64,000 nt of DNA, from contig JAJEAN010000007.1 in the NCBI GenBank assembly GCA_022822725.1, forward strand, positions 812,382 through 876,381. The letters are read 5' to 3'. Below the pieces are notes generated by a model. It was given only the letters and a program-made list of their open reading frames with translations. It ran no database searches and was not told the DNA's origin. This DNA is from Candidatus Latescibacterota bacterium (lineage in GTDB: Bacteria > JAAXHH01). Made by a program: the position numbers and the translations under genes. Positions 39,953 through 45,399 of this stretch are shown here, piece after piece. Each line of letters begins with the position of its first letter. The stretch's first letter is position 1.

Positions 39953-41275
39953 TCAGATTCCATCGTCCCCTGACCGGACCGGGATTCGCTGGTCGATCAG
40001 CCGCATGCGTTCATCCAGCAGCCGCTTGAGTTGGTTCAACTTGATCCGGTGGGCCGCGAGTTCCCTTTCGTGTTCCTGGATCATCTGTTGAATGAGATGG
40101 CGATCTTCACCAGACCGGGGATCGTCCGGGCCGTCTTCGGTGAGCAAGGGAGAAGCGGGAGCGGCGAGTGGTTTCGGCTGAGACGCGAGCACCGTGTGCA
40201 CGGTATGTTCCACATCCCCCCGAAGGTACTTGATTTCGATCCGGGTGCCCACGGGTAGCGCGGTCACGAATTCGGCCAGGACGATGGGATGGTTCATAGT
40301 GACGCCGTTGACGGCCTGAAGCACGTCGCCCTTGCGCAGCCCGACCCGCATGGCGGGACTGTCGGGATATACATCTGAAACGACCATGCCTTCGACGGCG
40401 CCCAGCATGATATTCCGGTCGCCGCCGATGGAGACGCTTTCCCAGATTTTTTCCACGTGAACGCCCAGCCAGCTCCGGCGGACTTCGCCGTATTCGATGA
40501 GCTGCCGGGCGAAGGTCTTCACGCGGTTGACGGGGATAACCGTAATCAGGCCGTTGCCTTCTCCTGCGGCGGAATTGCCCGTGGCGGAAGTCTGGACCCG
40601 ATGGGGATCGGCCACGAGACCGAGCAGGCGGCCGTTCGTGGAGAAAACCGCGCCGCCTGAGTAGGCGGAACCGGCCACGGTGCTGATCTGGATCATGACG
40701 TCCTCTTCCCGCAACCCGTTTACGATCCCCGTCGTCATCGAGGACGGAAAGCCGTGAACGTTGTTCAGCACCAGTACCCAGGACCCCGGACGGACGTCAT
40801 CGGAATCACCCAGGCGCGCGGTCTGGGTCTCCAGGCTGTCGACACGGATCACGGCGATGTCTGAAAGCCGGTCCACTCCGACGAGACGGCCCCGGCGGTA
40901 ACTGCCGTTTCGAAAGTTCACCAGGATGTCGTGGGCATGGTCCACGACGCCGGCCGTCGTAATGATGAAACCGTTCCGGTGAAGGACCACGCCGGTCCCG
41001 ATGGACCGCTCCCAGTCCGTGAAGGTCTGTCCGTTCACCGTATTGATGAACTTGCGCTGTACGATCACGCTGGCGACCGTCGGTTCCACGCGTTCTACGA
41101 GACTGACGATCTCCCGCTCGAGGCTATGGAGATACGGAGTGGTCTGCGCATGGACCCGGCCAGCGTCGCCCGTGAGCCCGATGCAGGCCAGTAGCGCGGC
41201 CCGGATCAGGATACGGAGACGGCCGGTCCAGAGGCGGCCGGTCCAAAGGCGGTAGTTGTAATGAGAACCGAGCAT
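39953..41275 (-). CDS. HtrA/DegP-like protein with degenerate catalytic triad
   Basis: A 440-residue exported protein: signal segment (about 20-43), trypsin-like domain (about 50-265), one PDZ domain (about 270-365) and a C-terminal coiled-coil-like helix (about 385-430). Against DegP the catalytic Asp (D139 in LSDIAVI) and Ser (S206 in AYSGGAV) are present. The catalytic His position in TNNHVVD reads TTAGVVD, with G109 (codon GGC, 40949-40951). His to Gly needs two base changes, so sequencing error is unlikely. It may be a chaperone or sensor, or use a shifted His (H113, H115). It is third in the sigma/anti-sigma operon, six bases after the anti-sigma gene. Confidence 0.85.
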   Translation of the reverse strand: MLGSHYNYRLWTGRLWTGRLRILIRAALLACIGLTGDAGRVHAQTTPYLHSLEREIVSLVERVEPTVASVIVQRKFINTVNGQTFTDWERSIGTGVVLHRNGFIITTAGVVDHAHDILVNFRNGSYRRGRLVGVDRLSDIAVIRVDSLETQTARLGDSDDVRPGSWVLVLNNVHGFPSSMTTGIVNGLREEDVMIQISTVAGSAYSGGAVFSTNGRLLGLVADPHRVQTSATGNSAAGEGNGLITVIPVNRVKTFARQLIEYGEVRRSWLGVHVEKIWESVSIGGDRNIMLGAVEGMVVSDVYPDSPAMRVGLRKGDVLQAVNGVTMNHPIVLAEFVTALPVGTRIEIKYLRGDVEHTVHTVLASQPKPLAAPASPLLTEDGPDDPRSGEDRHLIQQMIQEHERELAAHRIKLNQLKRLLDERMRLIDQRIPVRSGDDGI

Positions 41276-41281
41276 GGTCGA

Positions 41282-42187
41282 TCAGAACGATATACGGACG
41301 CGCCTGAGGGGCGCTGCCGGCCCCGGCGACTCCGACGCGTCGGGCGCGCCAGGTGCGCCGATTGTGCCGACCGCACGCTGCGAATCAAGAAGTTCAGCGG
41401 TGCCAACGGTTTGAAGCAGGCCTTCCGTTGCCGGTCGATCCGGATCACCGTTGGTTACCAGGTCCCGGCCGAAGGCCTCGTCGAACAGGGATGGATCGAG
41501 GCGCATGCCCGTTCCCGCCGAAACGAACCGGATCCCATGGGTCATCGGCTCCATGGTCCTGACGGTGAGGATGCCCGGTCTGTCGACGGTCATGCGGTTT
41601 GCGGAATATGGGAGACTGGTTGCAGCGGGAGTGGGGGGATTTGATGCCTGTTCCGTGTTCGTTTCCGGGCTTGTCGCCATGGGCGGCGCGAGATCCCGTT
41701 CAAGGGGAAAGGGAGAAATGGGATCGGGCGGCGCAAGTTCGGGTTCGATGGGTGCCGGCAGGGCGAAGGCCGTCGCAGGACCATCAGACGAACCGGACCT
41801 TTCCGCCGGGCCGGTCATTTCGGCGATACCGCCGATCACGGCTATGGTCAGGACCAGACTGGTCGTGAATACCAGTTGAACGGGGCGCTGCCGGCTGAGT
41901 TCGCCCAGTCCGGAAAAAGCGGCCGATACGCGTCTCCACCAGTAGGAGGCGTACAAATCGCGGGCGACTTCCCGGCTCAGCAGGTTTCCGAGCTGTTGAT
42001 CGAACACCGGCCGGGGGGACACGGCAGGAAGACTCTTGACGGCCCGAATGGCGCTTTCCATGTCTTTCATCCGAAGCCGGCACCTGGGACATCCGTTCAG
42101 GTGAAATCGAAACTCGTCTTCGGCGGCCTTCGTCAACTTACCGTCCAGGTAGTCCGACAGCTGCCGCTCGTATCCACTGCAGTTCAA
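41282..42187 (-). CDS. Zinc-finger anti-sigma factor, membrane anchored
   Basis: A 301-residue protein from a TTG start at 42187. The start is supported by AGGAGG (42197-42202) and places the zf-HC2 motif at the N-terminus: C3, H29, C33, C36 (HLNGCPRC). A single membrane helix spans about residues 103-123, and the outer part is Pro/Ala rich without a known fold. It should bind and hold the ECF sigma factor at the membrane. Its ribosome site lies in the last codons of the sigma gene, suggesting translational coupling. An HtrA-like gene follows six bases later. Confidence 0.85.
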   Translation of the reverse strand: MNCSGYERQLSDYLDGKLTKAAEDEFRFHLNGCPRCRLRMKDMESAIRAVKSLPAVSPRPVFDQQLGNLLSREVARDLYASYWWRRVSAAFSGLGELSRQRPVQLVFTTSLVLTIAVIGGIAEMTGPAERSGSSDGPATAFALPAPIEPELAPPDPISPFPLERDLAPPMATSPETNTEQASNPPTPAATSLPYSANRMTVDRPGILTVRTMEPMTHGIRFVSAGTGMRLDPSLFDEAFGRDLVTNGDPDRPATEGLLQTVGTAELLDSQRAVGTIGAPGAPDASESPGPAAPLRRVRISF

Positions 42188-42201: not shown

Positions 42202-42849
42202 TCAAAGTATCTCTACCTGCCACTGTCTCAACATTTCCTGCAGTCTCAGCCGTCCCCGGTTGACCCTTGACTTGACCGTTCCCGTCGGGCAACGGAGGAT
42301 CTCGCCGATCTGCTCGTAAGAAAGCTCCTCGACGTCACGCAACACGATCACCGACTTGTACTTCTCCGGCAGCTGATCGATCGCGTGCTGTATCGCCCGG
42401 CCCAGTTCGTTCTGCTCAAGGTGATCGCCGGGTCCCGCGTTCATGTCCGGCAGATCGATGCCTTCCCTCGTGCTGTTCTCGTGGGGTGAAGCGTTCAGGG
42501 AGAAGAACTGGCGGCGTTTCCGCTTGCGCAACTCGCTACGGGCGAGATTGAGTGCGATGGTATAGATCCAGGTGGAAAGATTGGAGATCGCCTTGTAGTT
42601 GTGGCGGTTTCGGTAGACCCTCAGAAACGTCTCCTGCACAAGGTCTTCCGCGCATTCCGTATTGTGGACCATGCGGTAGACGCAGTTGTACAGCCGGGTA
42701 CGGTATCTTCCGACGATCACCTCGAACGCACGTATGTCGTCCCGCTGGACTCGGACGAACAGCACTTCGTCCGACAGCGCCAGTTCGTCCTGTACACCGG
42801 ACTCGAAATCGGTGACCTGAACCGTGTTTATGGAGGTATTTTCAGCCAT
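42202..42849 (-). CDS. ECF (RpoE-like) RNA polymerase sigma factor
   Basis: A 215-residue sigma70-family factor with region 2 (AFEVIVGRYRTRLYNCVYRM, AEDLVQETFLRVYRN, STWIYTIALNLARSELRKRKR) and region 4 (QLPEKYKSVIVLRDVEELSY, GEILRCPTGTVKSRVNRGR). ATG 42849 is preferred over 42864 because GGTGG lies seven bases upstream and a promoter candidate would start transcription near 42864. It is the first gene of an operon with an anti-sigma factor and an HtrA-like protein, an envelope-stress arrangement known from sigE-rseA-htrA loci. Confidence 0.92.
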   Translation of the reverse strand: MAENTSINTVQVTDFESGVQDELALSDEVLFVRVQRDDIRAFEVIVGRYRTRLYNCVYRMVHNTECAEDLVQETFLRVYRNRHNYKAISNLSTWIYTIALNLARSELRKRKRRQFFSLNASPHENSTREGIDLPDMNAGPGDHLEQNELGRAIQHAIDQLPEKYKSVIVLRDVEELSYEQIGEILRCPTGTVKSRVNRGRLRLQEMLRQWQVEIL

Positions 42850-42870
42850 ATTATTTCCACCCATACCGCG

Positions 42871-42901
42871 TTATACGCCGCGCGGAGGGATTCGGTTTCA
42901 A
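42871..42901 (-). promoter_or_regulatory. Putative ECF-type autoregulatory promoter
   Basis: On the minus strand TTGAAACC (42894-42901) is followed by CGTATAA (42871-42877). The AAC and CGT words are about 17 bases apart, as in many ECF sigma promoters, and the predicted start (about 42864) gives a short leader before ATG 42849. Autoregulation by the encoded sigma factor is an inference. Confidence 0.4.
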
Positions 42902-42984: not shown

Positions 42985-44691
42985 TCATGCCCGTACTTCG
43001 CTCACGTCGTGGATGGTATACTGGTAGCCCTGTTCCGTAAGAAAGAGCTGACGGTTCACGGCATAGTCCTGGTCCAGGGTGTTCCGCGTGATGAGCGAAT
43101 AGAAAATGGCGGCGGAGCCGTCCGCCTTGGGCCGGAGAATCCGCCCGAGCCGCTGGGCTTCCTCCTGGCGGGACCCGAAGGTGCCCGATATCTGTATCGC
43201 CACGTTGGCGTCCGGCAGGTCGATGGCGAAATTGGCGACCTTGGACACCACGAGACGCTTGAGTTCGCCGTTTCTGAACCGGGTGTAGAGATCGAGGCGG
43301 GCCTGGAGCGGCGTGCTGCCGGTGATCAGGGGAAAATCGAACAACGCGGCGATCTGCTTGAGTTGTCTCACGTACAGTCCGATGATCAGGACCTGGTCCG
43401 AGGGATGTTGTTCCAGCAAGGCGCGGATGATCTCGGTCTTGCGGCTGTTCTCCGAGGCGATCCTGAACTTGTCTCGGCGGTTGGCCACGGCGTAGGACAT
43501 GCGACGCGCTTCGGGCAGATCGATCCGTATTTCACGGCAGTACGCCTCCGCGATCCAGCCCTGGCGCTCGAGCAGCTTCCACGGCATGTCGTACCGGCGG
43601 GGGCCGATCAGGCTGAAGACGTCGTCCTCCCGGCCATCCTCTCGGACCAGCGTCGCGGTAAGGCCGAGGCGCCGCCGGGCCTGGATCTCCGCCGTGTACC
43701 GGAAAACCGGGGCGGGGAGCAAATGGACCTCGTCGTAGATGATGAGGCCCCAGCCTTTCTGGTCGAAGAGGCCGAAATGCTCGAATTCGTCCCCTTTGCT
43801 CTTCCTGTAGGTCAGAATCTGGTAGGTTGCCAGGGTTACGGGCCGGATCTGTTTCGTCTCACCGGAATACTCGCCGATATGCTCTTCCGACAGCGAGGTC
43901 TTCTCGATCAGTTCCTCCCGCCACTGGCGCAGGGCCACCGTGTTGGCCGTCAGCACGAGGGTGTGGCACTTCAGAACGGCCATCGCTCCGAGGGCCACGA
44001 TGGTCTTCCCGGCACCGCAGGGCAACACGATGACCCCGTTGCCTCCCTGCGGCTCCCCGTTCATGTGAAACGCGCCGACCGCATCCTGCTGGTATTCCCG
44101 CATGCTGAAGGATTTCCGGTCTCCGGTACCGGTGCGCAGGTTGATTTCCAGCGGGGCGCCTTCGACGTATCCCGCCAGGTCCTCCACGGGAAACCCGACT
44201 TTGATCAGCGCCTGCTTGATGTGGCCGCGGAACCGGTCTCCCACCTGAACCCTTCGCTCGTCCAGGGGCTGCGCGAGGAACTGCTTGACCGAAGGCAGGC
44301 CGGAAACCTCCGCGATCAGGGCGGGGTCGTCGGACTCGAGGACCAGCCTGCCGTCTTCCTTGTGCAGGCGAAGCTGCCCGTACCGGTCGATGAAATCGCA
44401 GATCTCGCGGCGGATGTTCTGCGGGATCTCGTACTTGCTCAGGTTTTCAAGCGATTCGAGCACGCCGTCGGCGTTCATGCCGGCCGAGGCGGCGTTCCAG
44501 AGGGAAAGCGGACTCAGGCGGTAGACGTGGATATGCTCCGGCGACTTCTCCAGTTCCGCGAACCGGGCCAGCGCGTCCCTGGCATCCTCGTAGCGCGGAT
44601 GGTCGACTTCGACGAGGATGGTGCGGTCGCTCTGTACGATCAATGGGTTTTTCAGGTCAGGCAAGGATATCCCCCGGGTTCCATCCTGCAC
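42985..44691 (-). CDS. XPB/Rad25-like superfamily 2 DNA helicase
   Basis: A 568-residue SF2 helicase of the bacterial XPB type. An N-terminal helicase C-domain-like XPB_DRD region (about 20-200) precedes RecA domain 1 with Walker A LPCGAGKT and DEVH, the XPB hallmark RED loop (VREDGRED), and RecA domain 2 with VVSKVANFAIDLPDA and QRLGRILRPK. XPB helicases unwind DNA in nucleotide excision repair; bacterial homologues often pair with a nuclease such as Bax1-like XPG. No such partner is adjacent. The GTG start at 44691 is tentative. It lies 15 bases after the Sua5/YrdC gene. Confidence 0.9.
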   Translation of the reverse strand: MQDGTRGISLPDLKNPLIVQSDRTILVEVDHPRYEDARDALARFAELEKSPEHIHVYRLSPLSLWNAASAGMNADGVLESLENLSKYEIPQNIRREICDFIDRYGQLRLHKEDGRLVLESDDPALIAEVSGLPSVKQFLAQPLDERRVQVGDRFRGHIKQALIKVGFPVEDLAGYVEGAPLEINLRTGTGDRKSFSMREYQQDAVGAFHMNGEPQGGNGVIVLPCGAGKTIVALGAMAVLKCHTLVLTANTVALRQWREELIEKTSLSEEHIGEYSGETKQIRPVTLATYQILTYRKSKGDEFEHFGLFDQKGWGLIIYDEVHLLPAPVFRYTAEIQARRRLGLTATLVREDGREDDVFSLIGPRRYDMPWKLLERQGWIAEAYCREIRIDLPEARRMSYAVANRRDKFRIASENSRKTEIIRALLEQHPSDQVLIIGLYVRQLKQIAALFDFPLITGSTPLQARLDLYTRFRNGELKRLVVSKVANFAIDLPDANVAIQISGTFGSRQEEAQRLGRILRPKADGSAAIFYSLITRNTLDQDYAVNRQLFLTEQGYQYTIHDVSEVRA

Positions 44692-44706
44692 TGCGTCCGG
44701 TGCCGC

Positions 44707-45339
44707 TCATAGGTGCCAGGCGTTCTCGACCCGGCTCAAGGGTGTACACCCCGCGCGGATCAGCCGCGGCGTTCCCGCGGATACGTCCACCACCGTCGAA
44801 GGCTGGTCCGAAGGCGATCGACCGCCATCGAGTATCAGGTCGACCCGGTCGCCCAACCGGGCGGCCACATCCTCCGCCGTAAGGGGTTCCGGCTCACCGG
44901 AGCGGTTGGCGCTGGGTGCGGTCACGGGGCTGCCCGCCGCGCGGCACAAAGCTCCCGCGATCGCCGCGCCGCTGTGTCTGACCCCGATCGTGGCGCCTCC
45001 ACCCAGCAGTTCCCGTGGCACGCTGTCCAGCGCGGGCAAAACCAGGGTCAGCGGTCCGGGCCAGCATGCGTCCATCACCGCATGGACACGTTCGGGGATG
45101 CACCGGACCAGGTTTGCCAGGTCCTTCCGGTGGGAAACGAGTACCAGGATCGGCTTGGATTCGTCTCTGCCCTTGGCTTCATAGATGCGCCGGATCGCGG
45201 CGGGATTGGTACCGTCCGCGCCCAGTCCGTACACCGTTTCGGTTGGAAAAGCCACGAGTCCCCCGGCGCGTATTATGCCCGCGGCCTCCTGCAGTATGGA
45301 ACAGTCCGGCCGCACCGGATCGACAGTCAGTACCCTCAT
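44707..45339 (-). CDS. L-threonylcarbamoyladenylate synthase (Sua5/YciO/YrdC family)
   Basis: A 210-residue YrdC-domain protein. It has GGLVAFPTETVYGLGADG near the N-terminus, the KGRDESKPILVLV nucleotide-binding region, WPGPLTLVL, and TAPSANRSGEPEP. It makes threonylcarbamoyl-AMP from threonine, bicarbonate and ATP for t6A37 tRNA modification. ATG 45339 is chosen as the usual N-terminus; 45369 is possible. Neighbours on the same strand are purD upstream and the XPB-like helicase downstream. Confidence 0.9.
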   Translation of the reverse strand: MRVLTVDPVRPDCSILQEAAGIIRAGGLVAFPTETVYGLGADGTNPAAIRRIYEAKGRDESKPILVLVSHRKDLANLVRCIPERVHAVMDACWPGPLTLVLPALDSVPRELLGGGATIGVRHSGAAIAGALCRAAGSPVTAPSANRSGEPEPLTAEDVAARLGDRVDLILDGGRSPSDQPSTVVDVSAGTPRLIRAGCTPLSRVENAWHL

Positions 45340-45399
45340 GTTTTCGCATCCGATCGACCTGACGCGCATGGCAACGGAACCCGGTTGGTCCACGCGGGC

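Follow-up and report, generated by a model that had tools for sequence, protein, structure and literature searches.

Does an HtrA protein that has lost its catalytic histidine still act as a protease, and if it does not, what is its task in the operon of an ECF sigma factor and a membrane anti-sigma factor? The question is raised by a gene in the window, by which we mean the whole stretch of 64,000 nucleotides analysed here, taken from a Candidatus Latescibacterota genome. We refer to the product of this gene as pseudo-HtrA. Its features and those of its operon are listed in Table 1.

Table 1. Features of the pseudo-HtrA operon (positions are those of the window)
Feature	Position	Strand	Details	Basis
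ECF-type promoter	42871..42900	(-)	TGAAAC-N17-CGTATAA, upstream of the sigma gene	Motif match
ECF sigma factor	42202..42864	(-)	Start possibly at the second ATG, 42849	Pfam Sigma70_r2/r4
Membrane anti-sigma factor	about 41282..42187	(-)	zf-HC2, one TM segment, periplasmic region	Pfam zf-HC2 (E 1e-9), TM segment
Anti-sigma start		(-)	Probable TTG after GAGGAGG	Sequence reading
Anti-sigma C-terminal tail	41285..41305	(-)	RRVRISF-COOH, candidate PDZ ligand	Sequence
Pseudo-HtrA gene	39953..41275	(-)	440 aa, ATG start	
Pseudo-HtrA parts			N-terminal signal sequence, dead trypsin-like domain, one PDZ, C-terminal helix	Pfam, model, Foldseek, family alignment
Gly109 (catalytic His position)	40949..40951	(-)	Codon GGC	Sequence, alignment with canonical HtrAs
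Asp139	40859..40861	(-)	Codon GAC	Sequence, alignment with canonical HtrAs
Ser206	40658..40660	(-)	Codon TCA	Sequence, alignment with canonical HtrAs
PDZ domain	40193..40465	(-)	Residues 271–361	Pfam PDZ
Carboxylate-binding loop			WLGV, residues 269–272, start of PDZ domain	Loop pattern in alignment
C-terminal helix	39986..40102	(-)	Residues 392–430, probable coiled coil	AlphaFold2 model, heptad

Domain structure of pseudo-HtrA

Pfam identifies residues 93–220 of pseudo-HtrA as Trypsin_2 (E 6e-21) and places PDZ_6/PDZ_2 behind it. In the alignment with canonical HtrAs the protein has TTAGVVD where these have TNNHVVD, and AYSGG where they have GNSGG. The glycine in the histidine slot, the presence of D139 and S206 and the altered AYSGG had all been noticed in a sequence-only reading of the window, and the alignment, together with direct reading of the codon, bears them out. 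The AlphaFold2 model of a single chain (mean pLDDT 73, with the protease and PDZ domains mostly at 80–93) has the HtrA fold with an additional helix at the C-terminus, in agreement with the single PDZ domain and helical extension described in the same reading. Foldseek gave as top PDB match of the model AlgW bound to its activating C-terminal decapeptide; DegQ and DegP came next, and MucD (8k2y) and DegS ranked lower.

With its trypsin-like and PDZ domains the protein has the composition of the HtrA/Do serine proteases (S1C), according to both Pfam and the fold match; its triad, however, reads G-D-S instead of His-Asp-Ser. It scores 176 bits on TIGR02037, below the curated cut-off of 416 bits, and reaches 18.7 of the 800 bits required by the NCBIfam model for MamO; it is also below the cut-offs of the DegS and DegP models, and membership was therefore rejected. 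The N-terminus appears signal-like by eye, and the protein is apparently secreted by means of this signal sequence, without a membrane anchor. Elsewhere the same genome has two tandem pairs of other trypsin-like genes (L003/L005 and L006/L007).

Loss of the catalytic triad across the family

We searched 96 related genomes for orthologues. Ten were found within the genus, with 72–89% identity, and all of them read TTAGVVD, which excludes the sequencing error that had been considered, and discounted, when the glycine was first noticed. The remaining genome of the genus (G009) has no pseudo-HtrA orthologue in its 87% complete assembly. More distant members of the phylum have the triads S-S-T, G-S-T and G-D-T. 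Profile searches brought the number of relatives to 93, of which 74 are of the same type as the window's protein (clade I) and 19 belong to a sister clade (clade II). Clade I covers five phylum-level groups as divided by the search tool, and clade II occurs in a sixth; in one clade-I phylum 56 of 82 genomes contain a pseudo-HtrA. Some HtrA matches in distant genomes have an in-frame TGA (G084:C28, G088:C47, G091:C1 and C3), and one of them also a TAA.

None of the 93 relatives has a histidine at position 109, compared to all 58 canonical HtrAs checked, and this absence exceeds chance. Orthologues with a normal histidine had been named beforehand as the result that would count against the loss; they were sought without success in this set. 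Orthologues in ECF operons, which the same reading had proposed to check, share the loss of the histidine. Position 109 is most often Ser (48) or Gly (15) in the 74 clade-I members, the rest having other residues, and is Phe (8), Gly (7), Ala (3) or Leu (1) in clade II. The catalytic Asp is kept in 13/74 and the Ser in 15/74 members of clade I, where the most frequent triads are S-G-N, S-G-A and G-D-S; in clade II the numbers are 18/19 and 17/19.

Quick IQ-TREE trees, calculated without bootstrap, separate clade I, clade II and the canonical HtrAs by one branch each (SH-aLRT 95, 96 and 99), and the same split is obtained without the active-site columns (97, 94 and 99). Each group thus lies on one side of a branch, and the histidine may therefore have been lost a single time in the family. 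Clade II (L238, L274–L285, L287 and L289–L293, from the phylum of G331) is without the histidine, mostly keeps Asp and Ser and has no coiled coil, which suggests a half-way state. Most clade-I proteins have a short Leu/Glu heptad near the C-terminus, and none of those in clade II does. The carboxylate loop of the PDZ domain, mostly WLGV/I, is present in 73/74 clade-I and 19/19 clade-II proteins (92/93 in total); judged from this loop pattern, the domain appears to be of the DegS/AlgW type, which has a carboxylate loop for C-terminal peptides.

The sequence-only reading had left two roles open, that of a chaperone or peptide sensor and that of a protease using H113 or H115. The second, or an active protease reached by regulated rearrangement, draws some support from the retention of S206 and D139 in most of the window's genus and of Asp and Ser in clade II. 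However, H113 occurs in 14/74 and H115 in 11/74 clade-I members, essentially those of the window's genus; outside it H115 is absent and H113 nearly so. A relocated triad is not conserved even within the genus, because D139 is Asn in three species (G003, G007 and G011) and S206 is Thr in one (G004), and rescue by H113 or H115 is unsupported because most of clade I has usually lost Asp and Ser as well. On conservation across the family we reject a shifted histidine at 113 or 115, and we regard an unconventional active protease as very improbable. What stands of the earlier suggestion is a non-protease role such as that of a peptide sensor: from the family alignment, pseudo-HtrA is very probably not a protease.

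Selection on the pseudo-HtrA gene

Comparison of the window's species with ten congeners gave dN/dS values of 0.20–0.31 for pseudo-HtrA, indicating purifying selection; the corresponding values are 0.05–0.17 for the sigma factor and 0.30–0.46 for the anti-sigma factor. The loss of catalytic residues could also be expected of a functionless gene copy in decay, but the dN/dS values over the ten species pairs rule out such pseudogene decay, and the gene is moreover kept in 14 of the 16 genomes of its phylum and across six phylum-level groups, leaving this explanation a negligible probability. Pseudo-HtrA thus has both marks of an HtrA pseudoprotease: every orthologue is without a catalytic residue, and the gene is under purifying selection.

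Operon and promoter

The gene order in the window is ECF sigma factor, zf-HC2 anti-sigma factor and pseudo-HtrA, with 6 bases between the last two. A gene with Sigma70 regions 2 and 4 followed by one for a zf-HC2 protein with one transmembrane segment is the arrangement of an ECF/zf-HC2 module, and the window has it. Pseudo-HtrA is the third gene of such an operon in at least 90 of the 93 cases: at the clade-I loci the ECF gene is present in 71/74 and the anti-sigma gene in 72/74, those without one or the other being stretches that start at or near a contig end, and in clade II both are present in 19/19. None of 58 His-bearing HtrA loci checked in the same way contains the ECF and anti-sigma pair, although one, from SAR86, has an upstream ECF gene, like a MucD-type operon. 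In nearly all Latescibacterota genomes checked, genes for an XPB-like helicase and a Sua5/YrdC protein (42985–45393 in the window, minus strand) precede the operon, and an aldo/keto reductase and an M20 peptidase usually follow it.

The promoter motif upstream of the sigma gene has a single match in the 64 kb, where none is expected. It is kept in 13 Latescibacterota genomes, with the −35 part 34–52 bases before the putative start, and the DNA around it is otherwise unconserved; a search in the other phyla of the family gave no match, the motif being found in Latescibacterota only. The best NCBIfam match of the sigma factor is SigW, under the cut-off, and we take the motif to be similar to the sigmaW consensus. 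It is likely that the sigma factor autoregulates its operon. As a SigW-like sequence conserved through the order, the motif could be used for genome-wide mapping of the regulon.

The anti-sigma tail

Across the family, the anti-sigma factors combine a zinc-finger domain and a single transmembrane segment with a hardly conserved periplasmic region, about 30–180 residues long. The exception is the C-terminus. In clade I the last residue is aromatic in 71/72 proteins (Phe 59, Tyr 12), typically as V/I-x-F-COOH, the one exception (G073) ending in ...VTFSP. The information content is 3.57 bits at position −1 and 1.77 and 1.82 bits at the next two positions, falling to 0.4–1.2 bits at residues −4 to −40. 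As controls we used 24 complete zf-HC2 proteins encoded outside the pseudo-HtrA operon in the same six genomes, a small set, of which three end in Phe or Tyr; a zf-HC2 protein from outside the operon that ends in ...STF is L187 (in G117:C146). With the window's genus counted once, the comparison is 61/62 against 3/24 (Fisher p about 7e-16, as a guide only, the members being related). Clade-II tails are conserved differently, as ...YT..PTGGGL. Within the periplasmic region we also saw a motif Y-[VILTP]-[LMV]-x-x-[VI] in 56/81 proteins, against a mean of about 3 after shuffling, a comparison that overstates the case because the pattern was picked after viewing the sequences; in the window's own genus the motif cannot be made out with confidence.

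C-terminal peptides with the ending ...YYF or ...WVF bind to the PDZ domains of DegS and AlgW and activate these proteases (PMC8545111, PMC8103513), and in sequence the clade-I anti-sigma tail resembles these ligands. The PDZ domain of pseudo-HtrA probably binds the tail. Alternatively, the tail could be directed at another HtrA of the same cell, an active one of DegS/AlgW type, with pseudo-HtrA as a competitor or as a passive subunit of mixed oligomers: the genome has other HtrAs with an intact H-D-S triad (L001 and L002), and DegS and AlgW recognise C-termini of this kind (PMC8545111, PMC8103513). However, the tail tracks the pseudo-HtrA operon and is mostly missing from control anti-sigmas of the same genomes, of which at least some encode active HtrAs too, and we consider this alternative unlikely.

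Somewhat less probable again is that pseudo-HtrA works as a general periplasmic chaperone or scaffold, in the manner of a DegP whose protease is off, and has no tie to its neighbours beyond a common envelope-stress operon. Some HtrAs act as chaperones, the operon is probably under the control of its own sigma factor, and the C-terminal helix would suit such a role; against it are the single PDZ domain, the strict linkage to the anti-sigma factor in all groups, and the conservation of the aromatic tail on that partner.

Comparison with known systems

Among the closest known systems are DegS and AlgW, the site-1 proteases of the sigmaE and AlgU pathways. These are periplasmic, have the HtrA fold with one PDZ domain, a domain type to which aromatic C-termini bind (PMC8545111, PMC8103513), and act in signalling by an ECF sigma factor and a membrane anti-sigma factor, and pseudo-HtrA is encoded in an operon of that type. 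Unlike them, proteins of the pseudo-HtrA family lack the catalytic His and frequently Asp or Ser, and hence the triad needed for cutting the anti-sigma; pseudo-HtrA is apparently secreted without an anchor and has a C-terminal helix, and the candidate ligand of its PDZ domain is the anti-sigma factor itself.

MucD resembles pseudo-HtrA in fold (8k2y) and in being an HtrA encoded in an ECF sigma/anti-sigma operon (algU-mucABCD). It is regarded as an active protease, whereas no member of the pseudo-HtrA family has a full triad. The mycobacterial sigE-rseA-htrA operon has the same order of ECF sigma factor, anti-sigma factor and HtrA; there the triad of the HtrA is intact and the anti-sigma factor cytosolic. 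RseB and MucB bind the periplasmic part of the anti-sigma factor (PMC8103513). Pseudo-HtrA resembles them in being encoded in a sigma/anti-sigma operon and, from its signal-like N-terminus, presumably exported, and by analogy its role may be comparable; its fold, however, is that of HtrA and not of RseB/MucB, according to Foldseek. MamO is a magnetosome pseudoprotease of the HtrA family, with a degenerate triad and non-catalytic roles (PMC4794232); it shares the degeneration with pseudo-HtrA and differs in lineage and partner, as it binds metal and activates MamE.

The HtrA pseudoproteases that the literature search turned up in bacteria are magnetosome proteins. Neither an ECF/anti-sigma/pseudo-HtrA operon nor a dead HtrA as constant third member of such a module, with a matched tail, was found in the literature searched, though it may already have been mentioned in the 2021 re-classification of ECFs. 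The family has at least 93 members in six phylum-level groups and one signalling context. HtrA annotations in ECF operons cannot safely be read as site-1 proteases.

A proposed role for pseudo-HtrA

We propose that the dead HtrA is a periplasmic co-regulator of the anti-sigma factor whose PDZ domain holds the anti-sigma tail, and give this reading a probability of about 0.6. The lost triad, the operon, the selection on the gene, the conserved tail, the retained PDZ loop and the promoter are observations; the binding of the tail, the shielding and the signal are inferred from them. In this view an ECF sigma factor and a membrane anti-sigma factor form a switch to which pseudo-HtrA adds a third, periplasmic component. 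Its PDZ domain would most likely bind the aromatic C-terminus of the anti-sigma factor encoded directly upstream. When bound, it would shield the periplasmic region of the anti-sigma factor, as RseB/MucB might suggest, or hold it in place. Release could be triggered, for instance, by stray C-termini of outer-membrane proteins, which are of the same kind and would compete for the PDZ domain; the released anti-sigma factor would then be open to an ordinary site-1 protease, degradation would begin, and the freed sigma factor would fire its own operon promoter.

We hold the protection from a true site-1 protease and the release by competing C-termini with less confidence than the binding of tail to PDZ domain. 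The full sensing scheme, in which the tail mimics the C-terminus of an unfolded outer-membrane protein, is read by the dead HtrA and is displaced by such C-termini, is tentative and rather doubtful as a whole. It would mean that the module senses stress by competition, whereas DegS and AlgW sense it by activation. Clade II, which keeps Asp and Ser and has anti-sigma tails ending in ...GGL, speaks against the co-regulator reading.

The family suggests that a DegS-type sensor can turn into a non-enzymatic co-regulator. The conserved aromatic tail offers an unusually direct point at which to test this: one peptide, one PDZ domain and one residue.
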